A stretch of 64,000 nt of DNA from NCBI GenBank assembly GCA_029834535.1, contig JAQMWT010000435.1, positions 124,001-188,000 on the forward strand. Reading direction: 5' to 3'. A program made the position numbers and the translations under genes. Position 1 is the first letter of the stretch. Each line of letters starts with the position of its first letter. Positions 1-64,000 of this stretch are shown piece by piece. The notes below the pieces were generated by a model. It was not told where the DNA came from. It did not search any database and saw nothing but the letters and a program-made list of their open reading frames with translations. The stretch comes from Chrysophaeum taylorii. Its lineage: Eukaryota > Sar > Pelagophyceae > Pelagomonadales > Pelagomonadaceae.

Positions 1-953
1 TCCATGTCATCACCCACACCCAGTTGGCCGTAACTGTTGTCGCCGAACGCGTAGACGACACCCGACGCGTCTATTGCCAGCGAGTGGTACTTGCCGGCCG
101 CGATATAGACGACGCCTTCGAGGTCGACGCGATGCGGCGCGCGACGATCCGTCAGCTCGACCCCTAGTCCGAGCCGACCGCTACCGCCGTGCCCCGAAGC
201 GTACAACGCACCAAGTGCAGTTGCAAAGAGCGAGTGGGACGCACCGGCGGCGATCGCCGCGCAGCGGTCCGGCAGCTGCTTGACGCGCGCGGGAGCCGAG
301 CCTCCCGGCCTGCCGAGGCGACCGTCGTCTCCGACGCCCCAGCTCCACGCATCGCCAGCTTCGTCCACAGCAAGGGCATGCGCCGCCCCCGCAGAGATAA
401 GAAAAATGCGCGTCGGAAACCTGAGCCGTTCGAGCCGCGGCGCCGCCTGGCGGCCCGAGTTTGCGGCAGGAACGCACTCGTCGTCGAGACCTCCCGCGTA
501 AACGCCGCCCGTTTCGGTGAGGACCAGCGAGAAGCCCCAACCCGCCGCCACGCAGACTGCCTGCTCGCCAAGCCTTAGATTTGCTTCCTTCTGACCTGCG
601 GGACCGCACGGCTGGTATCCCAGCGCTGAGCACGAGCCGTCGCGCCGCGCGATAAGCGAGTGCAGACTCGCGGCGATGCGACCCAAGGCTGGCCGCTCGA
701 TCTTGGCGCCCCATTCCGCGCGCGACTCGCGGGGCCGTTCGTCCCTCACCTTGCGAAGTGCGCTCGAAAACACCACGCGAGGCGAGATGCCCGCCGCCTC
801 GAGCTGATGGAGCTTGGCCAACAGCTCAGGTTGGGAACCCAGCAGACGCTCCAGCATCTCCTCACATGCTGCCCGCACTTCACCTACGAGACCCTCCATC
901 TTCGCGTGTTTTTTTACGGCTGCTCCATCTTCTCGGCGGGCTGCCTTGTCCAT
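1..953 (-). CDS. RCC1-repeat protein, N-terminal part (runs off window)
   Basis: The minus frame is open from the ATG at 953 to the window edge, giving about 317 residues with the C-terminus outside. An N-terminal helical stretch with many Glu and Leu residues is followed by RCC1-type beta-propeller blades. Telltale pieces are HALAVDEAGDAWSWGVGDDG (about residues 190-209), AGASHSLFATALGALYASG, and AGKYHSLAIDASGVVYAFGD followed by SYGQLGVG at the edge. RCC1 repeats form seven-bladed propellers used as Ran exchange factors or as protein- or lipid-binding platforms; which role applies here cannot be told. The start follows an in-frame stop about 25 bases upstream; a second Met at 899 is possible. 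Family assignment is firm, function is open. Confidence 0.85.
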   Translation of the reverse strand, partial: MDKAARREDGAAVKKHAKMEGLVGEVRAACEEMLERLLGSQPELLAKLHQLEAAGISPRVVFSSALRKVRDERPRESRAEWGAKIERPALGRIAASLHSLIARRDGSCSALGYQPCGPAGQKEANLRLGEQAVCVAAGWGFSLVLTETGGVYAGGLDDECVPAANSGRQAAPRLERLRFPTRIFLISAGAAHALAVDEAGDAWSWGVGDDGRLGRPGGSAPARVKQLPDRCAAIAAGASHSLFATALGALYASGHGGSGRLGLGVELTDRRAPHRVDLEGVVYIAAGKYHSLAIDASGVVYAFGDNSYGQLGVGDDM

Positions 954-1482
954 GCGGCCAGTTACAAGACGTGTCGGTTAAACAAAACCATACCTTCCTT
1001 TCTTCCGAACGGACTTATGTTGTTCAAGGGAACTTCACAAAGTTCGTGGTTACGAAAGAGAACTTATTACTTCTCAGAAGGCGGAGAATTTCTATCCGTG
1101 ATTAGGGAATACGCCGGCGTTAAGGAAGTTCGAAGAAGTTCAACATGCGCTGGCGCGACAAATTATCCTGGAGGCACAGAAAACATAGGGGTTAGTTACA
1201 ACGCGACGAGGAGGTCTTGGGCACCTGTTCGGGCTAGTGTGATTGATAATGGAGGGAGGGGGGTCGTCGCTGGTTCAAAAAGAGGAAAATGCTGCGCGAT
1301 GGGCCTCCTCGTTAACACACGCCGCGAAAATTACGAAAACCACATGTGTCGGAAACCCGCCTCTTCTTCTTCTTCTTCTTCTTCTTCTTTTTTAGACTAG
1401 GGGGTGCCTCGCTCGCACGCTCGGACTCGGGAAGAGAGACGCGCGGCGGTATTGTTTACTACTACTACTACTACTCCTATAG
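954..1482. other. Intergenic stretch with two microsatellites
   Basis: No gene recognised. It holds a TTC/CTT tract at about 1,368-1,390 and an ACT tract at about 1,456-1,475, just downstream of the stop of the next minus-strand gene. It contains the 5' flank of the RCC1 gene and the 3' flank of the cyclophilin-like gene. Confidence 0.6.
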
Positions 1483-2512
1483 CTACGCCGGGTCGTAGTT
1501 AAGAATGTCGACACCGAGAATGTTGATATATTCCTTGGAGTCGTGCACAAAGCCGAGGCCGGGCGGCGCAGGCTGGCGGCGCATGCGCTCGACGACGTCG
1601 AAGCCCTCAACGATCTTGGCGAAGCAGGAGTCGGCTTCGGTCTTGCTGCCTTGGGAGCCAGGGCCGTGGTTCCTACGGTGGTTCAGCAAAATAAACAAAT
1701 AAATAAATGCGTGCACGATGTTCCTCGAAGGAAGGAAGGTCGTACCTCGTGTTGTCGAGGGTCGAGATGTAAAACTCCGGGCCGCCGGGGCGGCCGGCAA
1801 AACCTGAAGAATTACGTAAGCGCGTCCAAGAGGGCTGCGGACCGAGGGTATACTTCTCGTGGGGGAAGGCGGGGTCATACTCCTGGTACGCGAGGCCCTT
1901 GACCTCGGGCGTGCGCACGAAGGCCTGGAGGACGTGGCCAGCGTTGCGGTGAAAGGCCGCCGTCCACTGTTCTTCCGGTCGAAGTCGCATCGCGACGCAA
2001 GCATCGAGGAAAACGTGTATAGCGTGCGGCACGACGTCGATCGGCGCCGTCTCGATTACGAGAGTTGCGGGGCCGCCGCCCATCGAGGCGGGAAAAGCGA
2101 GGCGGATGGCGAGGCGATACGTTGGGCCCTTGCCGTACCTCGTCTCGAGGAGTCGCTTCGTCGCGTTCCGGAGCTCGCTCGTCGCGGCGAGCGCGACCGG
2201 GTCCGTCTCCATCACGACGCCCGATCGTCGCATCTCGCTCACGGTTCGGCGATGCCGCGCGACGAGGGCATCGAGATCCTCGGGGGGTCGGCGGAGTCGC
2301 GTCACCGGCGCGTCTGTGTTTGTGGGGGTGGGGCGACGGCCTTTCTCGAATCGGAGTCCGGCGACGACGAGCGCGACGAGGACGAGCGAGAAGCACGTGT
2401 GCACGCCGAGCGCGCGGAAGAACGACCGCGACGCGGGCGTTTCGTCGACAGCCTCGTCGCAATTCCTCTCCGCCTTGCCCCTCGACGCCTCGACGACGCG
2501 TCCACGACGCAT
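1483..2512 (-). CDS. Membrane-anchored cyclophilin-like peptidyl-prolyl isomerase domain protein
   Basis: Two exons, 2512-1746 and 1672-1483, are joined across a 73-nt GT..AG intron (1745-1673). The splice restores DNTR + NHGPGSQGSKTEADSCFAK, a cyclophilin-type strand and loop. The product is 318 aa. A basic N-terminus precedes one hydrophobic segment at about residues 36-54, suggesting a type II anchor. A coil-like region follows, then a cyclophilin-like fold from about residue 145 to the end, with EFYISTLDN and FAKIVEGFDVVERM. The classical catalytic Arg and Trp positions are not clear, so isomerase activity is uncertain. Such single-pass cyclophilin-like proteins are common in stramenopile endomembranes. 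The ATG at 2512 is the only sensible start, and the next gene starts only 19 bases away on the other strand. Confidence 0.7.
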
Positions 2513-53849: not shown

Positions 53850-54920
53850 TCAGAGGAGGTCGATGCCCCGCGGGGGCCTCGTGGGCGGGCCGGGCCGGGG
53901 CGGCTGCTGCTGCGGGGGCATGCCGCCGCCGCCGCCGCCGCCGCCATAGGGAGGAGCTGCGCAGGAGGGAGGCGTGTGACCGCACAACAACAAAAAAAAA
54001 ACCGAGGAGAAATTCTCCTCGCTCACAAACTCACCGCGGGAAAACTTGTCGCGGAGCATCTCGATCTTCGCGCGGCGATCGGGAGGAAGCTGGGCAAGCT
54101 GCTGAGGCGAAAGGGCGAGGGCCTCCTTGACGAGCTCGGGCGGCGGGACCTGGGGCTGCTGCTGGGATGGTCCCGGTTGGTAAAAGCCGCGCGGCGGTCC
54201 GCGGGGGTCGGCATAGGCGGGAGGAGGTCGCGCGGGCTGGGGCTGGGAAAAGTGCGGCGGACCGGGAACGCCGCCGCGCGGAGGGGGAGCGCCCGACCTG
54301 GGCGCGAACTGCTGCGGCGGGTGGGTGTAGGGCCTCGGGGGCGGGGTGAAGCGACTCGGCGCCGGCGCGGGCTCGAGGGGCCTTGCCTCGGGCGGAGGCT
54401 CTTTGATCATGCCGAGCACGAGCATGGCATGAACGAGGCCGTCCACGAGCGCCGAGTTTTCCTCGAGGAGCCGCCGGAGGCGCGCGCGGTCGGCGTCGGC
54501 GACATCTTTCGCATCCTTGACCACCTCCCAGACCTCGCGCTTCGACATGCTCTCGACCACCGACTGCGCCGTTCGCTCGGGCTTAGTCGCGGGCCCCGAG
54601 TCGCCCACCGACTGCGCGTAGTCGACGAGATTCGAGTTGTTCGAGAAATTCACGCGCAGCGGACGACCGTTGATCTCGCGATTGTTCAAGTTACGGATCG
54701 CCGACAGCGCCGTCGCTGCGTCCTCGTACTCGACGAAGCAATACCCGCGCGACTTGCCGCTCTCTGCGTGGGTCGCGAGCCGCACGGCTACCACTCGCCC
54801 CACTTCGCTAAAGATCCGTTTCAGGTCTTCCTCGCTCGTCCCGAACGCGATGTTTCCAACGAACACGTCATTCCGACCGTGCCCGCCGCCGCGGGGATTC
54901 CCACCAACGTCGCGCTTCAT
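53850..54920 (-). CDS. CSTF2: Cleavage stimulation factor subunit 2 (CstF64)
   Basis: The ATG at 54920 gives MKRDVGGNPRGGGHGRNDVF. The RRM is at about residues 15-100, with VFVGNIAFGTSEEDL (RNP2) and KSRGYCFVEYEDA (RNP1). The hinge that binds CstF77/symplekin follows (TAQSVVESMSKREVWEVVKD...ALVDGLVHAMLVLGMI). After a Pro/Gln-rich linker, the C-terminal three-helix domain reads VKEALALSPQQLAQLPPDRR. A 78-nt in-frame intron (54034-53957; GTGAGT...GCGCAG) probably splits that domain from the Gly-rich end; if retained, the frame stays open. The spliced product is 330 aa. It recognises U/GU-rich RNA for mRNA 3' processing. Confidence 0.88.
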   Translation of the reverse strand: MKRDVGGNPRGGGHGRNDVFVGNIAFGTSEEDLKRIFSEVGRVVAVRLATHAESGKSRGYCFVEYEDAATALSAIRNLNNREINGRPLRVNFSNNSNLVDYAQSVGDSGPATKPERTAQSVVESMSKREVWEVVKDAKDVADADRARLRRLLEENSALVDGLVHAMLVLGMIKEPPPEARPLEPAPAPSRFTPPPRPYTHPPQQFAPRSGAPPPRGGVPGPPHFSQPQPARPPPAYADPRGPPRGFYQPGPSQQQPQVPPPELVKEALALSPQQLAQLPPDRRAKIEMLRDKFSRGEFVSEENFSSVFFLLLCGHTPPSCAAPPYGGGGGGGGMPPQQQPPRPGPPTRPPRGIDLL

Positions 54921-56780
54921 CGAGACATCGCGACGATTTTTGCCTTCGAACAATACCCGCCCTTAACCCTAGCCGTGCCCTCGTCGCCTCCACCACGCAC
55001 CGCCCCGAGGCGATAGCACGAAGGTTTCCGATCCTCTCGAAACTCTCGCGAGCGAGCATCGCCGACAATTTCCTCGCCCTGTCATTCTGGCTGCTCCTGG
55101 GCGACCCAAACTTTGTCTGTCACCTGAAGAAGCCACACATCACAAGATGATCATCCTCTGAAGGCCAGCAAGACGCCCTCGCGATTGTCGGCCACGCACC
55201 CAACGGCGAGGCTTCCCACGACGAGCTCCGACGATTTTACTCCCTCGCGAAAACCTGACACCAAACGAAACAGCATCTTTTCCTTTCGTTCAGCGACTAA
55301 CGACTAATTCTCGGACTCTGCTTACGTAATCGCGCACCGCGAGCTCTGCAGCACACTCGCGGACGATCGGCCCATCTTCGATGCAGAGTTAACGATATTC
55401 CTCGCAGGCATCCACCCCAAAAGCGCTGGCGAGGAACTCAACTCCGACGTCTGGCCTCGATCAACGACTTCTGCCGTAGTAATGCCGCGCGTCGGCCTAG
55501 CCGCGGCGCCACGGCTGTCAAAGCGCGTCGGGTGAACACCCGCCGACGGATTACTTCAAGGATGTCCACCACGCTATGAATAAGGAGGTCCGCCCAGGGA
55601 TCCACAGCAACGATGTCGTCGACGAGTTCGACGCGCGCCGGCCGCGTTACCCCGTCTCTGCGATTCGTTCAGACCGTCTGGCGCTGCCTCCAACTGAGCA
55701 GAAGCCCCAGTTCGGTCTTGACCTGGTCTTGACCGCTAATTTTATCCGTTGCTGCAGTTGTCTGATACCTACGATGCCTCGGACGCCAACAACAAGGATG
55801 TCATCGCCGTTGCCCCCCGCGGAAAGACAAGTAGGGCACCTCCTCGCCAGTCGAGGCGTGGAAGTTTCACTCACGCGGAGTACTTTCTCAGTGACTTTCG
55901 TGGTCGTTGAGCAGTCCCAATGATGAATGGCGCATCGTCGCCGACGCGGCCTCGATAAGAAGAAGCGACGTGTCGTCGCGCCCGACAATCAAAGAATACG
56001 ACGACGACGTAGCGCTTAGCGCCGCCCAGAGCGAACGTGACACCAAGGGTGTCGACTTTTGCATCTGTATGGTCCTCGAGGCCGCCAAGCAAACCGATAA
56101 AACTCTCGGCGTCAGAAAAGGCCGCAACGGCTGGAACAACAGCGCGACGGACGAGTGGCACTTCGAAGTCCGCTGGTTCAGCGAATACGCTGATTTTCGG
56201 AGTTTGCGACTGGGAAGACACCCAGCTCCTCGGGCTGGGCAACCGCCGCTTCCTGTTGGGGGTAGGGGCGCGCGAGAACACCACGACCCCCCCCCCCCCC
56301 AGCACGAAAGTTTCGCGCTGGGTGGTCGGTACGAAAGTTTCTCGCTGGATGGTCGGTGCCTTTCCCGTATCGCCGGGGGGTTGATGACCCCTCCCCGGAC
56401 GACGGGCATTGCAGCACCAGAGTGGCTCTAAAAGAACCAATGTAGGCTACAGATAAGCAGGGCAAATGGAGTCCGAGGGGGGTGAGCAGCGGCGCTGGAT
56501 GGGCCGTAAGGAATGCGGCGGCCTCGTGGTAGTATGCGGCGCCTCGGAGGTCCTTGAGGTAGTCGTGGAGGTTCTCTTCGGGGGCGGGGCTCTCCTCCTC
56601 CTCCTCGGAAGCGTGGTCGTCGAGTCGACAGAGTCTGGCTCATTGGCCTCGTCAATGTTCTCCTGGGACGGAGAACATGGACGGTTCGTTGTCGTCATCG
56701 TCGTCGTCTTGAGAACAGGACGTATACAGAACCTCGTCAATTTTTACGGCCCGGGGTTGTGACAGTCAAATCCTTAAGTA
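54921..56780. other. 1.9 kb of unassigned, probably decayed mobile DNA
   Basis: Several short frames look protein-like (plus: IKEYDDDVALSAAQSERDTK and NGWNNSATDEWHFEVRWFSE at about 55,990-56,190; HAEYFLSDFRGR near 55,862-55,898) but shift frame and lack a start. This resembles a decayed transposon gene that I could not name. A short C-homopolymer lies near 56,289-56,301. Nothing else is recognisable. Confidence 0.4.
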
Positions 56781-57153: not shown

Positions 57154-57297
57154 GCGTAGTGGTTTTCTCAGATACCCGCCCCTCCTGGCCGGACCAGGGG
57201 CTTCAACAACCCTTTCTCCCAACCCGAACCGCGGGTGAAACCACCACACGCCCGATCTCAGCGTAATACCTCACGCCATCACGAAATCGGACAATCA
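57154..57297 (-). mobile_element. Inverted partial LTR of the same gypsy-like family (older)
   Basis: The reverse complement matches the second half of the LTRs at 57,352-57,683 and 63,065-63,394 (GCGTGAGGTATTACGCTGAG; ATCGGGCGTGTGGTGGTTTC), with scattered differences, so it is older than the intact pair. Together with the inverted internal fragment at 63,744-63,991 it looks like a minus-strand relative into which other elements inserted. Confidence 0.8.
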
Positions 57298-57351
57298 CTA
57301 ACTAACTAACTAACTAACTAACTTCGGACCTCTCCCAGGCATGGGAGCCAG

Positions 57352-57683
57352 TGTGGCAGTAATGCCCATTTCCCCCACTTGCCTGCCTGCCACCTGACTT
57401 ACCCTGATTGTTGCCCTGGTATTGACCTTGCATTTAGGGGGGGGTGTCATCTTGACACCTTCACCTGCGTTTCCACTGGACCCAATGTACCGGGCATTTG
57501 TATTGCTTTCTTGCTGTCTTCTTGATATTACCCTCTTTTGATTGTTCGATTTCGTGATGGCGTGAGGTATTACGCTGAGATCGGGCGTGTGGTGGTTTCA
57601 CCCGTGGTTCGGGTAGGGAGAAAGGGCTGTTGAGGCCCCCGGTCCGGCCAGGAGGGGCGGGTATCTGAGAAAAAAACACTACA
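57352..57683 (+). repeat. 5' LTR
   Basis: 332 bp, TG...CA ends, matching the 3' LTR almost throughout. Confidence 0.9.
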
Positions 57684-57745
57684 GTGGTCTCAGAAACGGG
57701 AATCGATAGTCTAACTCCCGGACTATCGATCTCCTGTTTCTCGGC
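57684..57745 (+). promoter_or_regulatory. Primer-binding-like site and hairpin after the 5' LTR
   Basis: One base after the LTR comes TGGTCTCAGAAACGGGAA, which starts TGG as tRNA-complementary primer sites do. It is followed by a perfect inverted repeat ATCGATAGTC / GACTATCGAT with a short loop, a likely leader RNA hairpin. The tRNA was not identified. Confidence 0.5.
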
Positions 57746-58188
57746 GGCGAGTCGGTTCGTAACGGTCGAGTGAGTGCGAAGCCGACGCATTTGTGGGTGA
57801 AGATCCAGAGGATCACGGGTACCTCCGCGGGGTTCATTTCATTTTACGTGATTCGGATCGAACGGGGAGCGGAGTCACTACGACTCATTTTGCATACTTT
57901 TGCATATCGACTCATTTTGCATACTTTTGCATATCGATCGTCATACTGTAAGGCATTGTTGTAAGACCTAACTAGCTCGTGCGAGGCAGACCACCTCCCT
58001 GACGGCGAGCGACTACACCGGGAAGGCCGTCCATAGTCTTCACGCGCAAGGCAAATGCTTCCGTAAGACCAGCGCACCGGTACAGCGCGCAGTAGTCAGA
58101 CGGCTGCCGGCAATTGTCGTCTGACGAAAAGAATACAAGTGAGCTGTGAACATCCGGAACAAACATATTATCCGGGCAAATCGCGATC

Positions 58189-59300
58189 ATGGCAGAGAGG
58201 CCAATGACAGAACCATCGCAGTGGTTTCGGGACGCACAGGGGCGTCTGCAACGATTCAGTGCAGGGACTCCGTTTGCGTCTATTGGAAGAACACCGTTCA
58301 GTACGCCCTTTCAAGGACAGGAAGCCGAGGAAAGCGGCATCGGAAGAGAGGCCAGATCATATGATAGCCTCGACAGCCCCCCGAGCGTGGTCATCCTTCC
58401 GGATCCACGCGGCGACGAAGGGGGAGATACGGTTGCGCCAGACGCAACTTCAAGACAAGGGGAGCCTACGTTCCCGTACGCACAACCCTACGAACGTGCG
58501 ATGAATACTACGGAGTCATCTCGAGCGGAACCCGAACCGTTTACGGCGATGCGTGGACCAGAGGAGAGTGCACCTCCTAGGCCACCATCTGTGAATACGA
58601 GAGCGACAGATTTTCGCGGGGATGTCGACCCCGAGGTTCTGCAGACCATCAACGAACGATTCGAGATGTACCCGTCGCAGATGGAGCAAATCATACGTGA
58701 ACTTGAGAACACCCGCCGCGACGCTCAACAACAACGTTCAGAAGTGGAGCGACAGCGGATCGACAACGATCGACTTCGGCGAATGATGGAGGAATCCATG
58801 CGGGCGCATGCTCGAGAGGCACGGCCAACCTCTCCGAATGCTACGCGTGTTACGCCCGACGACGATGAGGACGCTGTATCGGCACTGACCGACGATCCGC
58901 CACCGCGAAGTCGACCGGAGCCTACCCCGCACTATCATACTGACCCCTGTTCGGCGCGTCCTCGTGACGAAGAAGAAATACTTCGTGTCAGGAAGGGAGC
59001 TGCTGGTATGACACGTATCACATTCTCGAATCTCACGGGGCAAATTACCAAGGACCGTGATGAGGTGGACGCGTGGTGGATGCAATTGCGGCGTATGATG
59101 GAAGGCGGGATCATACCGCATGAAGGATGTGTCAACATGCAGCTAGAAGCCACTGATGACGTGTGTCATGCCACTCTTACGGCTGCTGTTGACGACGACG
59201 AAGTCGAGGAGGATGTCCTGAGTGACAGACCTCCTCCTGAGCCACCTCCAGATGAAGAAGTGAAAAAAACACCAGAAATGGAGATGGAGGCGACTGTTAA
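58189..59300 (+). mobile_element. gag-like region of the LTR element
   Basis: A polar, Pro/Glu-rich product with a coiled-coil stretch (EQIIRELENTRRDAQQQRSE) and TRITFSNLTGQITKDRDEVD. It has no recognisable zinc knuckle. Position after the leader and before the enzymatic region supports a gag role. Confidence 0.55.
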
Positions 59301-59329
59301 GGAGCTGCTATCTAAGCACGCCTCCTTGG

Positions 59330-60250
59330 TTTGGATACCCATCACCGACACCTTCGTCGTCGTCTATTTTGCTGGCGCTGGAGGATCAACGTTGGGTATC
59401 CGGCGATGCAATGAGCTATATGGCAGTTCATTTCGCATTGTCCTGGCTTTGGATGCTTGTCCTCAAGCCCGAGCCACCTTTGAACTCATTTTTCCGAAGA
59501 TTCCCTATGTTTTGCATGAGTTGGGGAAATCTCATCGTCGTACATAAGACCTGGTGTTGTCGTATTTGCATTCAGATTTTTGGAAGCACTCTTATTTTCA
59601 CGCCAGTCCGCCGTGTATCTATGGATCGACTGCCAATTTGCACTACAGGGACGCACGCAAGGGCGCTACTATTACTTCTTGGGTCCTGCGTCATTTCCGC
59701 AACGCACCTTATGTGATTGGACGATGGACACTCGAGCAGGAACCATCAGTGATCCCTTTTGTGCATCACCAATTTTATGTGCCGCGTATTGTTGATTTCT
59801 ATAGTATCACGCCAGAGCTGCCGTGCTCGCGCACGCGCCTACTTGCTTGCAATGTTCGCTTGGAACTGCCGTTATTATCGCGTGTACCACCGAATTTACG
59901 GGACCGTTTTGGCCCAGCATTGGGATTTACAGGTGGTCACCCGCTCATTATAGTGAACAGTTTCTCATCTACGCGCCCGGCTATCGGCCCTGCCTTCACG
60001 GTGACGCGCAATAAGCTCCGCTTAGGACCTCATTTCTCGAACACCCATCCACTCACGTTGCAGATGCACCAGGAAATTATGACCGTTCCTGCTACGTGGC
60101 AATGGGGTGAGACAGTTTCAGAGACAGCAGCTATGAAGATGCTTGGCAGTATGGTGCCACCCGCGACTATGACGCGGATTGCGCTAGCAGTGCACAATTC
60201 GTTTGACCCTTCACTTCGAATTTTGGGTAAGTTGCGGAATATTGCGACGA
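59330..60250 (+). mobile_element. Cytosine-C5 DNA methyltransferase-like region of the LTR element
   Basis: Motifs in the order of C5 methyltransferases: YFAGAGGSTLGIRR (motif I FxGxGG) with ALDACPQARATFELIFP, then HASPPC (motif IV, catalytic Pro-Cys), and a late EIMTVPATWQW with MLGSMVPPATMTRIALA, like motifs IX-X (GNxVPP). It lies between the gag-like and reverse transcriptase parts. Confidence 0.65.
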
Positions 60251-60639
60251 CTACGCTAGCCCAACCTGATCACCATATTCTACGGTTTTCACCTTTTGCT
60301 GTAGAGTCGCGCATTCCAACGCTCGACCCTGCCACTCGAAGTGTATCATGGATTGCGCCCGATGAACTCTACTCTTCTGCGAGTCCTGCACCATCCGCTG
60401 CTGCCACCACCACCCCGCCACCACCTTCAGTTGCATCGCCTGGGACGGCTTCATCTTTTGCAGGGGGCACCGTCGCCACTGCTGTTATGCAGAGCAACCA
60501 AGTTGATAACCAGCCCTCCGCAACTGCTGAAGAAGAAGGCACCGCGAAAGAGCGACCAGCGTATTTCAATACGTGCGACGTTCCGTGGGCGGACGCGCCT
60601 CACGACGAACATGGTCAACCCTCACCGGTGATGCCTCCT

Positions 60640-62340
60640 CATTTAGCGGATCAGGAGAGCATGCAGGTCATCCCTCCGACCGTCGCGCAGGTCGAAATGG
60701 TGATGACTGAGTTGGGTATTACAGAGCATCCTGCCTTAGATGATGACGAGAAGCTGATGATGAAGCATTTAATCTCGTATTCGTGGGCATTCTTCGATGA
60801 TGTGATGAGACCTGTTGATTCACCTGAAGTGACGCTCCGGTTCAAAGAAGAGAACCCGACTCCCGTCAAACTCTCGCCATATCGGTTGTCGAAAGAAAAG
60901 ACTGAGTGTTTGCGGATGCAGATTGAAGCGTGGACCCGAGACGGAGTTATTCGTCCCGCGAATTCTCCATGGGGGTTCCCTATTTTGATGTTGCCTAAGA
61001 AAGGTGCTGAGCCTGGCATTTCCAATGCTTACAGAGCAGCTGTTGACCTACGGCGCCTCAATGCATTGCTCAAGGATGATAGCTGGCCGAGTGTGAGCAT
61101 GGCTGACACGTTGATGTTTCTCATTGACAAGTTTTGTCGTTCCAGTTTGGATATTCATTGGGGTTATCACAATTTACGATTGTCGCTGGATGCACAATAT
61201 GTGGTCACCTTCACTAGTCCTCTGGGAGCGTACAGCTACATGCGTCTACCTTTGGGAGTCAAACCAGCCGGAAGTTTGTTTTGCAAGCAGTTGAACACTG
61301 ACTTATCGCAATGGCTATATCGTGATCTCGTGGCATATATCGACGATATTCTCGCCGGTCACGCAGATACAAAGAATCACTTGCAGTGCCTTGTGCAAGT
61401 TATTCCCCATCTCGCCTTGAAGGGGTACAGTGCCAAGATCAAGAAGATTCATTTTATGCAAGAAGTCATTGAGTTTTTGGGTCATTTATCTACCCCGAAC
61501 GGACTTCTTCCATCACCAAGATCTTTAGAAGCCATCAGACACATGCCAATCCCTGGCACTTTGTCGGATGCTGACCCTAAGAAGCAAGTGCGATCTTTCC
61601 TTGGAATGGGGGGCTTTTGCCGGCGTTATGTAAGGAATTTTGCGAAAGTTGCAGGGCCATTAAGACAACTGACGTTGCCGGACGTGAAATTCACGTGGAC
61701 GAAAGAGTGTCAGGAAGCTTGGGATGCCATTATCGAGGCTATTGTCACGTCGAAGGGCGTCTACCATCCTGATTACTCGTTGCCTTTTTACATTCGAACT
61801 GATGCTTCCGCGCATGGGTTGGGTGCTTACCTATTTCAAAAAGTACCAGTCGTTGACGACGATGGAAGAGAAAGAATCGAAGAGAGAGTTATCGAGTACT
61901 GGAGTCGAACCGTGCCTAAGTCGATGAGGAAGTATGATCCTCGGCGCTTGGAACTCCTCGCAGTACTCTCTGCTCTCGAAAATTTCCGATTTTATATCGA
62001 AGGTCATCAGACAAAGTTAGAGACGGATCATCGTAACTTAACGTTTCTGCGGGATTCGAATCATACGTCTGGACAGTTAGCACGATGGGCTATGCGGCTT
62101 GCTGCGTTCGACCGGGAGCTAGGATACAAGCCTGGAAGCTCCCCTGGCATGCGTATTCCGGATTGTCTGTCGCGCAACCCTATCGACAAATTGATCGAAA
62201 AAGATGAAGACGGGGAACCGATCAATGAAGCTTTTTTTGATTTTCCAAGAAATCCCCACCGATATCCCTGGCACCGCTTGTTTTACCTTCTCTTCGGTGA
62301 CGATGCCTATGCTGACGGACAGCGGACCCACCGCAGCTAT
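60640..62340 (+). mobile_element. Reverse transcriptase and RNase H region of the LTR element
   Basis: RT motifs: DGVIRPANSPWGFPILMLPK, YRAAVDLRRLNALL, YSYMRLPLGVKPAGSLFCKQ, and LVAYIDDILAGH with the YIDD active-site box near 61,337. A connection region with RSFLGMGGFCRRYVRNFAKV follows, then RNase H with FYIRTDASAHGLGAYL and LETDHRNLTFL. The motif set places the element in Ty3/gypsy. Confidence 0.9.
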
Positions 62341-63064
62341 GGTAGCAGTTAGTACGCGACAGAACGTACAACCGCCTCAATTCTCGTACGAGTCTGAGCC
62401 AATTGACTCCGTCGAACGTCTCCCTTTTGCGGATCAAGCGGAGGATGAGATCACTCTCGATGAGATAGCGAAAGAACAAGCTGGCGGATTACTACTCGAA
62501 CGTCGAGCGGATTTTTGTGCGTCTCAAGACAAAAAAGCGAGCCCAGGAGACCACCCACAGTCTCCGAAAAGAGGCAGAAAGAAGACCGGAGAGACCAACC
62601 ATAGTCTCTGAGACCAACCATAGTCTCTGGCGAGGCAAAAGGCTTGTGCCGTGTAAGTCCGTCGCACCGGTCAACCGCGCGAGTCGAACAGTAGCCGGCA
62701 AATTTTGCTGCTCGACGAGAAGTTTTGGTGTTCGAGATAGCCGTTGATATCCGAGAGAAACCGCACCATGGAAACTAGAGGAGACTGACGTTTGTTCTGC
62801 GACCGCTTCTGCTGAAGAACGACGCTTAAGACCAGAAGACAAAGACGGAGGTAGCTTCACATGCCTACGACCCAACATGGCGGGCTGTGAACCCTGTGTG
62901 ACTGATTTTCGCACGGATGAAATCGATGTCCTCGTCACTAACTTCGGTCTCCATAGCAACAAAGTTCCTGCTGATGTAGCTGAACGAGCTTATCGTACCA
63001 TTCGTGAGCGTGACCTTCGTCACCCTTGAAGTCGAGGACGACTTCATCTCAAGTAGGGGGCTCC

Positions 63065-63394
63065 TGTGGCAGTAATGCCCATTCCCCCACTTGCCTGCCT
63101 GCCACCTGACTTACCCTGATTGTTGCCGTGGTATTGACCTTGCATTTAGGGGGGGGTGTCATCTTGACACCTTCACCTGCGCTTCCACTGGACCCAATGT
63201 ACCGGGCATTTGTATTGCTTTCTTGCTGTCTTCTTGATATTACCCTCTTTTGATTGTTCGATTTCGTGATGGCGTGAGGTATTACGCTGAGATCGGGCGT
63301 GTGGTGGTTTCACCCGTGGTTCGGGTAGGGAGAAAGGGTTGTTGAGGCCCCCGGTCCGGCCAGGAGGGGCGGGTATCTGAGAAAAACCACTACA
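63065..63394 (+). repeat. 3' LTR
   Basis: 330 bp, preceded by a purine-rich AAGTAGGGGG tract (polypurine-like) at about 63,050-63,060. Confidence 0.9.
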
Positions 63395-63743
63395 CCAGGC
63401 TGGGCCGGCAGTAACCGGTCCAGGATCACAGAGCAAAAATCACACAGTTGGGGTAGAGGCGTAGGTTGGCACCTATTCGCCTCCCGGGCGGGCCGGTTGG
63501 CAGCCGGAACGTTCGCAGTGGGACGGGGTATGGCCGGGGGGCGAAGACGGGAGGTTATCGACGAGTTGGTTGTCAGTCACATCGCGAACTCCTCGTCGCA
63601 TGGCGACAAGCTTGATGGTCACTCTCCGCCGACCGACCTTTCGGCGCTCCTCGTCTACAGGCCCGTGATTCCGGACTGGCTCCTGTCGGTCCGGCCTGGC
63701 TCCCATGCTCGGGGGAGGTCTGAAGTTAGTTAGTTAGTTAGTG

Positions 63744-63991
63744 GGGTAGAGGCGAGGGATGAAAGGGCGTGGATGGCGGACCGCCACTGCGCGCGGTCTT
63801 GTGCGAGGTCGTGTGACGAGAACATCGATTTCATCCGGGCGAAAATCAGTCACACAGGGTTCACAGCCCTCCATGTTTGGTCGTAGGCGTGTGAAGCTAC
63901 CTCCGTCAGGATCTTTGTATTCTGGTCTTAAGCGTCGCTCAGCCAGAGGCTTAGTAGGATCAAAGACGCGAGGATCATCGCGCGGTCCCAA
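63744..63991 (-). mobile_element. Inverted internal fragment of the same LTR family
   Basis: On minus it matches the element's 3' internal region at about 62,811-62,940 (RRLRPE, SFTRLRPN, GCEPCVTDF, DEIDVLVT). It is the older, minus-strand relative of the intact copy and continues beyond the window. Confidence 0.8.
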
Positions 63992-64000
63992 ATCGGTATA

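Follow-up and report, generated by a model that had tools for sequence, protein, structure and literature searches.

The locus described here makes a long-standing question testable: why does a transposon encode an enzyme that belongs to the very pathway by which it is usually silenced? The window, by which we mean the whole stretch of DNA analysed (64,000 nucleotides of a contig of Chrysophaeum taylorii), contains an LTR retrotransposon in which, according to the original prediction, a cytosine-C5 DNA methyltransferase (MTase)-like domain lies between the gag-like and the reverse transcriptase (RT) parts. Is this domain a genuine MTase, has selection kept it, which known enzymes does it resemble, and on what could it act?

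Structure of the window element

The element occupies positions 57352-63394 and is a Ty3/gypsy-type LTR retrotransposon, as had been proposed; this placement is based on the domain order and on Pfam models, and the window copy has the LTR pair, the target site duplication (TSD), and an RNase H after RT (Table 1). The two LTRs showed 4 mismatches in 330 aligned positions, a divergence of 1.2%, which bears out the suggestion of a young element. For the probable primer binding site no tRNA match was found, and a tRNA scan of the window gave no tRNAs. The first open frame extends from stop to stop over 58150-59547, and the TAA at its end (59545-59547) divides the MTase domain in frame.

Table 1 Features of the window element (positions in the window).
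Feature	Position	Strand	Basis or remark
TSD CCAG, left copy (4 bp)	57348-57351		Reading of the sequence; identical to 63395-63398
5' LTR (TGTGGCAG...ACACTACA), 332 bp	57352-57683	+	Alignment to 3' LTR
Probable primer binding site	57685-57702	+	Position and TGG start only, one base past the LTR
First open frame: remaining gag N-terminal part and MTase N-terminus (motifs I-II), fused in frame	58189-59547	+	First Met at 58189
Junction of the internal deletion (approximately 2.6 kb)	59101-59106	+	6-nt microhomology GAAGGC
C5 cytosine MTase domain, diverged, split by TAA	59356-60198	+	PF00145, phrog_116, phage HMM, profile-profile match
Second open frame, in phase with the first: MTase C-terminal part, linker, RT, RNase H	59548-62352	+	
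Motif IV SPPC, catalytic Cys at 59614-59616	59605-59616	+	Cys in 30/30 copies
Motif VI-like LEQEP	59731-59745	+	Glu in 28/30 copies
Motif VIII CSRTR	59824-59838	+	Both Arg in 30/30 copies
Motif X GSMVPP	60145-60162	+	First Pro in 30/30 copies
Reverse transcriptase PF00078	60994-61485	+	51 bits
RNase H PF17917	61771-62109	+	90 bits
Segment (333 bp) where L034 has integrase	62484-62816	+	Comparison of loci
3' LTR, 330 bp	63065-63394	+	Alignment to 5' LTR
TSD CCAG, right copy (4 bp)	63395-63398		Reading of the sequence; identical to 57348-57351

Comparison with five longer loci indicated that approximately 2.6 kb present in L031, L038, and L032 is absent from the window copy, and this deletion accounts for the mismatch between loci upstream of the junction. 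The lost part corresponds to most of gag and the zinc-knuckle-like and protease-like region of the full-length relatives; in L031, CLSCGRHGSFNHDNGVCP zinc-knuckle-like and retropepsin-like stretches were recognised there by reading the sequence. Pfam gave only a weak Retrotrans_gag match (E = 0.015) on the upstream part of L031 and no match on its protease-like stretch or on the copia counterpart described below, so that both protease labels come from reading the sequence. Eight of 30 aligned loci (L001, which is the window copy, L002, L003, L004, L008, L010, L019, and L028) run across the junction without a break; the deleted form has therefore multiplied.

Integrase was also absent from the window copy in the comparison with the longer loci. 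In place of the 333-bp segment near its 3' end (Table 1), L034 and L035 have approximately 1.4 kb of other sequence, of the same length in both, within which the integrase of L034 lies; the integrase of L031 is located in its second frame. The H2C2 integrase zinc-binding domain exceeded its cut-off in L031 (60.0 bits) and L034 (64.6 bits), and rve was just below its cut-off of 32.6 (28.3 and 32.3 bits, respectively). L032 and L041 share the 333-bp segment, in which a 'agaccaaccatagtctctg' unit is repeated and approximately 50 nt are similar to the 5' leader of the element itself; the segment perhaps originated by a template switch.

Thus the window copy reads LTR - gag N-terminal part - interrupted MTase - RT - RNase H - LTR, with no recognisable protease or integrase, and the full-length relatives have the order gag - (protease-like) - MTase - RT - RNase H - integrase. 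With both this deletion and a stop within its MTase, the window copy is a broken derivative that cannot make the enzyme.

Several features were observed around the element. An inverted LTR-like fragment (57163-57297), 96% complementary to the LTR, lies directly upstream. At the other side, window positions 63813-63999 match the reverse complement of the 3' part of the element in three of the five longer loci (L038, L034, and L035) and partly in L032, and a copy of the same family in opposite orientation (C435:191541-192323, minus strand) lies 3.5 kb past the window end; the two elements may be arranged tail to tail. Farther upstream, a 370-aa open frame on the minus strand (53850-54962) reads by eye like an RNA-recognition-motif protein.

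Identification of the methyltransferase domain

The three motifs on which the original prediction was built were found in their expected place: FAGAGG, of the motif I type, starts at 59368, and SPPC and GSMVPP follow as motifs IV and X. Together with the Glu of motif VI and with motif VIII, the order of a C5-MTase (I, IV with its Cys, VI with its Glu, VIII, X) is kept. In what we take to be motif VI the domain reads EQ instead of the presumably usual ENV, and the region that we assume to be motif IX aligns without the presumably usual RE. The stretch between motifs VIII and IX, usually the target-recognition domain, is short.

The proposed check against PF00145 gave a divided result. The two pieces of the window domain matched the profile in order (profile positions 7-46 and 260-321) at 12.7-15.9 bits, below the cut-off of 22, whereas naturally open copies exceeded it (L031, 30.7; L038, 33.0; L039, 27.4; L048, 32.4 bits). 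The 1319-aa frame of L032, which contains only the start of the domain, had no PF00145 match at E <= 1. A second profile, phrog_116 ('DNA methyltransferase'), matched L031 at E = 6.9e-10 and matched 6/6 members of alignment A3.

We also built a phage HMM from 14 phage MTases out of 20 candidates (L055 and 19 further loci, with L057, L065, and L071-L074 left out). It matched three open MTase domains at E = 5.2e-14 to 2.6e-12 and the two window pieces at E = 3.7e-4 and 0.045, and gave no match on reversed proteins. When 880 ORFs from the window and the fetched loci were searched with it, 55 were matched at E <= 10, and all 55 were MTase ORFs by blastp. Finally, alignment by hhalign of a profile of two gypsy families (the second is described below) with the 14 phage MTases gave Prob 97.9 and E = 4.5e-13 over 255 columns, from motif I to motif X.

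Structural searches were less informative. A PDB sequence search with the gypsy MTase was weak (E = 0.3); with profile A3 it gave two weak matches (E = 0.15 and 0.57), each carrying the title 'Cytosine-specific methyltransferase' and neither of them a DNMT3 chain. The AlphaFold2 model of the window C-terminal piece alone (59548-60330) had a mean pLDDT of 32.9, so that its fold was useless.

That the motifs had arisen by chance in a linker, with no MTase involved, would fit the low scores of the window pieces by themselves. However, the open copies and a second gypsy family pass PF00145, phrog_116 and the phage HMM recognise the domain, and the 55 background ORFs were MTases without exception; we regard this explanation as having practically no chance of being right. 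It is already refuted by the profile-profile match across 255 columns. The prediction that a C5-MTase domain lies between gag and RT is thus upheld, by PF00145 in open copies and by the phage profile match.

Copies of the window family in the genome

The genome comprises 70.8 Mb in 697 contigs. Of the host, predicted to be ochrophyte-like, it can be said that it is an alga: contig C697 carries psaB, and a frame of an LHC gene with a plastid-targeting-like leader adjoins the Dnmt2 gene on C634. From the ranking of PDB matches we read it as red-lineage; the ochrophyte part of the prediction is only compatible with these data. Contig C696 has at least eight PF00078 matches over the cut-off and may represent an organelle genome with many group II introns.

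A DNA search with positions 59266-60250 gave 167 candidates, the best 40 of which, including the window, were 95-100% identical. A protein search with the MTase C-terminal piece gave at least 153 matches in the genome, some of which are two pieces of one copy. Among 30 aligned loci, similarity over the region from approximately 59166 to 61750 was 92-100% in almost every 200-base bin, L025 (84%, first bin) and L019 (73%, last bin) falling below this range, and upstream of approximately 59166 some loci were window-like and others were not. In all 30 aligned copies RT sequence follows the MTase. All copies examined carry the MTase domain, but they were found by searching for that domain, and its presence is consequently silent on domain-less members.

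The TAA at 59545-59547 occurs in three of the 30 copies (L001, L002, and L008), the other 27 having a sense codon. A stop within the MTase domain was found in nine of the 30 loci, window included, and four further loci (L004, L012, L026, and L027) were broken into two pieces by tblastn; these stops and breaks are as expected for decaying insertions. If the TAA common to three copies has a single origin, its presence in all three suggests that full-length relatives can provide the proteins.

A second gypsy family with the same domain

A region of contig C310 (L075), picked for an RT match resembling that of the window family, also has an MTase upstream of RT. This MTase is 40% identical to that of L031 (tblastn, E = 4.5e-71), passes PF00145 at 25.9 bits, and gave at least 109 matches among 1095 candidates when used as the query. 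The matches form two groups, of approximately 85-100% and 76-80% identity. Two members lie at C5:548353-549468 and C5:524295-525410; the open frames that contain them, 3063 and 3067 aa long, respectively, are possibly whole one-frame polyproteins.

When three domains from each gypsy family were aligned, the identity between families was 38-39%. The stretches PITY..VV..F.G.GGS.LG, VLALD, ASPPC, W..EQ, R.RLL, TVTR, and S.VPP were invariant, and in this six-domain alignment the invariant residues sit on MTase motifs. This conservation between families is better evidence than that within the window family, because the 30 copies are close relatives.

Selection on the enzyme

The ratio dN/dS was calculated by the method of Nei and Gojobori; because dS above 1 is near saturation, the ratios are approximate. 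Between L031 and L048, the value was 0.075 for the MTase (dS 1.43), 0.091 for RT, and 0.19 for the upstream part (439 codons). Twelve copies each compared with L048, in comparisons that are not independent, gave 0.067-0.086, and inside the subfamily the value was 0.23. In the tested pair L031/L048 the MTase is therefore under strong purifying selection, at least as strong as that on RT. At least two element families have retained the enzyme under selection.

These values bear on two other explanations of the domain. It might be a passenger or decaying relic, that is, a captured gene fragment without function, and the stop in the window copy and in nine of the 30 loci in all is what a relic would show. 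The ratio of 0.075 between diverged subfamilies largely refutes this idea, and many stop-free matches were found in three element families; we consider it very improbable. Alternatively, the domain might have a non-catalytic role in nucleic-acid binding, as a structural part of Gag-Pol, or in SAM sensing. The short region between motifs VIII and IX speaks for such a role, as do the deviations in motifs VI and IX from what we take to be the textbook forms. Yet families that are only 38-39% identical have the catalytic Cys, the Glu of motif VI, and motifs I, VIII, and X in common, and purifying selection was at least that on RT in the tested pair, which makes a non-catalytic role unlikely.

A different methyltransferase in copia elements

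A PF00145 search of the genome gave 57 matches over the cut-off, including two host genes on C634 and C621. By comparison of both match tables, 48 of the other 55 overlap matches of a copia-borne domain (L046), and four more match L046 at 67-89%; C64, C216, and C683:59821 were left out. The first stage of the PF00145 search is limited in reach: none of the places matched by the window-family MTase appeared in its result, though single copies pass the model.

The L046 domain had 125 matches in the genome at 65-100% identity. In one copia element (C96), the MTase is followed downstream by rve (E = 0.003, 18.2 bits, below the cut-off) and then by RVT_2 (E = 3.6e-39). The order MTase - rve - RVT_2 is the copia order, with RVT_2 seen in this one element only. 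Upstream of the MTase, LIDGGAS is protease-like by eye. A PF07727 search of the genome gave at least 150 high-scoring copia matches.

The copia MTase has motifs including FTLPCQHLS and VENV, and no motif X was seen in it. Its pairs gave dN/dS of 0.09-0.12. It showed no direct similarity to the gypsy MTase (hhalign Prob 0.1, second gypsy family included), and its match to the phage set (E = 1.2e-4) was confined to motifs II-VIII. Against PDB sequences, a single copia-type domain had one weak, unrelated match; with the copia MTase profile, bacterial MTases appeared at E = 0.04 and above. In plasmids, tblastn gave many weak matches with a best E of 0.03.

Relation to phage, bacterial, and host enzymes

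The two host genes recognised by PF00145 are a DNMT5-like gene on C621 (PF00145 and SNF2) and a full-length 360-aa enzyme on C634, which we take to be Dnmt2 from its CFTK...GTGS signature. On C634, the Dnmt2-like frame of L043 (C634:8300-10400; frame 522-1601, plus strand) overlaps a frame on the minus strand (3-1340) that encodes in its C-terminal part a chlorophyll a/b-binding protein (PF00504); as the frames overlap, the two genes are very close together.

An HMM of the two gypsy families hit 14 of 14 phage enzymes (E = 1.9e-6 to 7e-3), compared with E = 3.5 for the host Dnmt2 and no match at E <= 10 for the host DNMT5. In the reverse direction, the phage HMM reached DNMT5 (E = 5.1e-5) and Dnmt2 (E = 0.0035), less well than the gypsy domains. 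By these profile comparisons, the gypsy-borne enzyme appears to resemble phage and bacterial MTases rather than the two host enzymes, and since its HMM matches the phage enzymes far better, capture from C621 or C634 is unsupported. The narrow alignment A1, which is shallow, matched Dnmt2, DNMT5, and the copia alignment only weakly by hhalign; the copia and phage comparisons were redone with the second gypsy family added.

Closer relatives were sought in other sequence collections. In phages, tblastn with the gypsy MTase gave a best E of 0.01 over 28% of the query, and in plasmids E = 2 or worse. Pattern searches of viral_contigs and prokaryote genome_contigs gave 6, 77, 21, and 51 matches for the gypsy MTase, none of which was confirmed by tblastn; four matches for the host Dnmt2 in viral_contigs were not confirmed either.

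Possible function of the enzyme

Methylated cytosines that decay should leave C-to-T changes among the copies. No excess of CG-to-TG/CA changes was found among them (3.8% at CpG versus 3.6% at CH), and a C-to-T test over 165 contexts gave a smallest p of 0.0055, within chance for 165 tests. The CpG observed/expected ratio was approximately 1.07 for the element and 1.32 for the window, with no depletion. Because there is no deamination footprint, lasting methylation of integrated copies is unsupported, and modification of cDNA or RNA in the particle would be favoured over self-methylation of the genome. Transient or RNA modification is compatible with the absent footprint.

With moderate confidence, we favour a gypsy-family Gag-Pol that carries a phage/bacterial-type C5-MTase before RT and that would act on the element's own nucleic acid. 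The MTase would be translated in frame with RT inside Gag-Pol, and for that reason would probably enter the virus-like particle with RT. There it would methylate cytosines of the element's new cDNA, or of the RNA or the tRNA primer, during retrotransposition; action on cDNA or RNA is our best guess, and the element could benefit by evading a host reaction against foreign DNA that lacks the modification.

The original prediction had also considered host chromatin as the target, in which case the many copies would methylate the genome or target sites and so steer silencing or integration. The very large number of copies in a genome of this size fits such a role, and the DNMT5-like host gene could maintain marks once set. 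Against it stand the CpG ratio of the window and the lack of excess CpG decay in element copies, and a Gag-Pol domain would be expected mainly in particles. We judge action on host chromatin to be rather improbable, and modification of the element's own nucleic acid remains the preferred reading.

A wider proposal is that gypsy and copia elements of this one genome separately recruited phage/bacterial-type C5-MTases into their polyproteins and kept them active as particle-borne modification enzymes. Judged from the sequence comparisons, this is possible but doubtful. If true, it would parallel in a eukaryote the self-modification by which phages counter restriction, and would imply that the host has a defence able to sense cDNA or RNA without the modification.

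Comparison with known systems

Retrotransposons bearing DNMTs have been described from Symbiodinium (LINE and DIRS) and Klebsormidium (gypsy) (PMC5890265). In the parts of the literature available to us, the C5-DNMTs reported from retrotransposons come from dinoflagellates and charophytes and are of the Dnmt3 or an orphan dinoflagellate type (PMC5890265, PMC12344493). The closest in architecture is KnitGypsy-Dnmt3 of Klebsormidium nitens (de Mendoza et al. 2018, PMC5890265), which likewise has a C5-MTase in a gypsy Pol polyprotein, with conserved catalytic residues and purifying selection. However, it is Dnmt3-derived with a DIRS-like repeat structure, whereas the Chrysophaeum enzyme is phage-like by profile and the LTRs of its element are plain. 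A further difference is that here MTases occur in gypsy as well as in copia elements of the same genome.

SymbioDIRS-Dnmt3 and SymbioLINE-Dnmt resemble the present elements in reaching hundreds of copies in one algal genome under purifying selection, but are DIRS (with tyrosine recombinase) and LINE elements rather than LTR gypsy/copia elements; SymbioLINE-Dnmt elements are CpG-depleted, unlike those described here (PMC5890265). A 2025 paper, which cites the 2018 work, describes DNMT3 in 'LTR Copia' and DIRS elements of streptophytes and dinoflagellates (PMC12344493). Its 'LTR Copia' case shares with ours a DNMT in an LTR element; in Chrysophaeum, the copia MTase has no detectable tie to the gypsy MTase. 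Among titles and beginnings of abstracts, mostly of non-subscription papers, no phage-like C5-MTase in gypsy or copia elements was found, which is weak evidence of absence.

Phage C5-MTases (phrog_116; Aphanizomenon phage CL131 gp003, which is L055) are similar over the full-length profile match (E = 4.5e-13), but are free-standing, have extra sequence in the target-recognition region, and share 25% identity in the profile alignment. The host DNMT5-like (C621) and Dnmt2-like (C634) proteins are PF00145 members too, but are not matched well by the gypsy HMM. Retrotransposon-borne MTases are of a kind already known; what appears to be new here is a phage-like enzyme in two gypsy families together with another MTase in copia elements, all in one algal genome.
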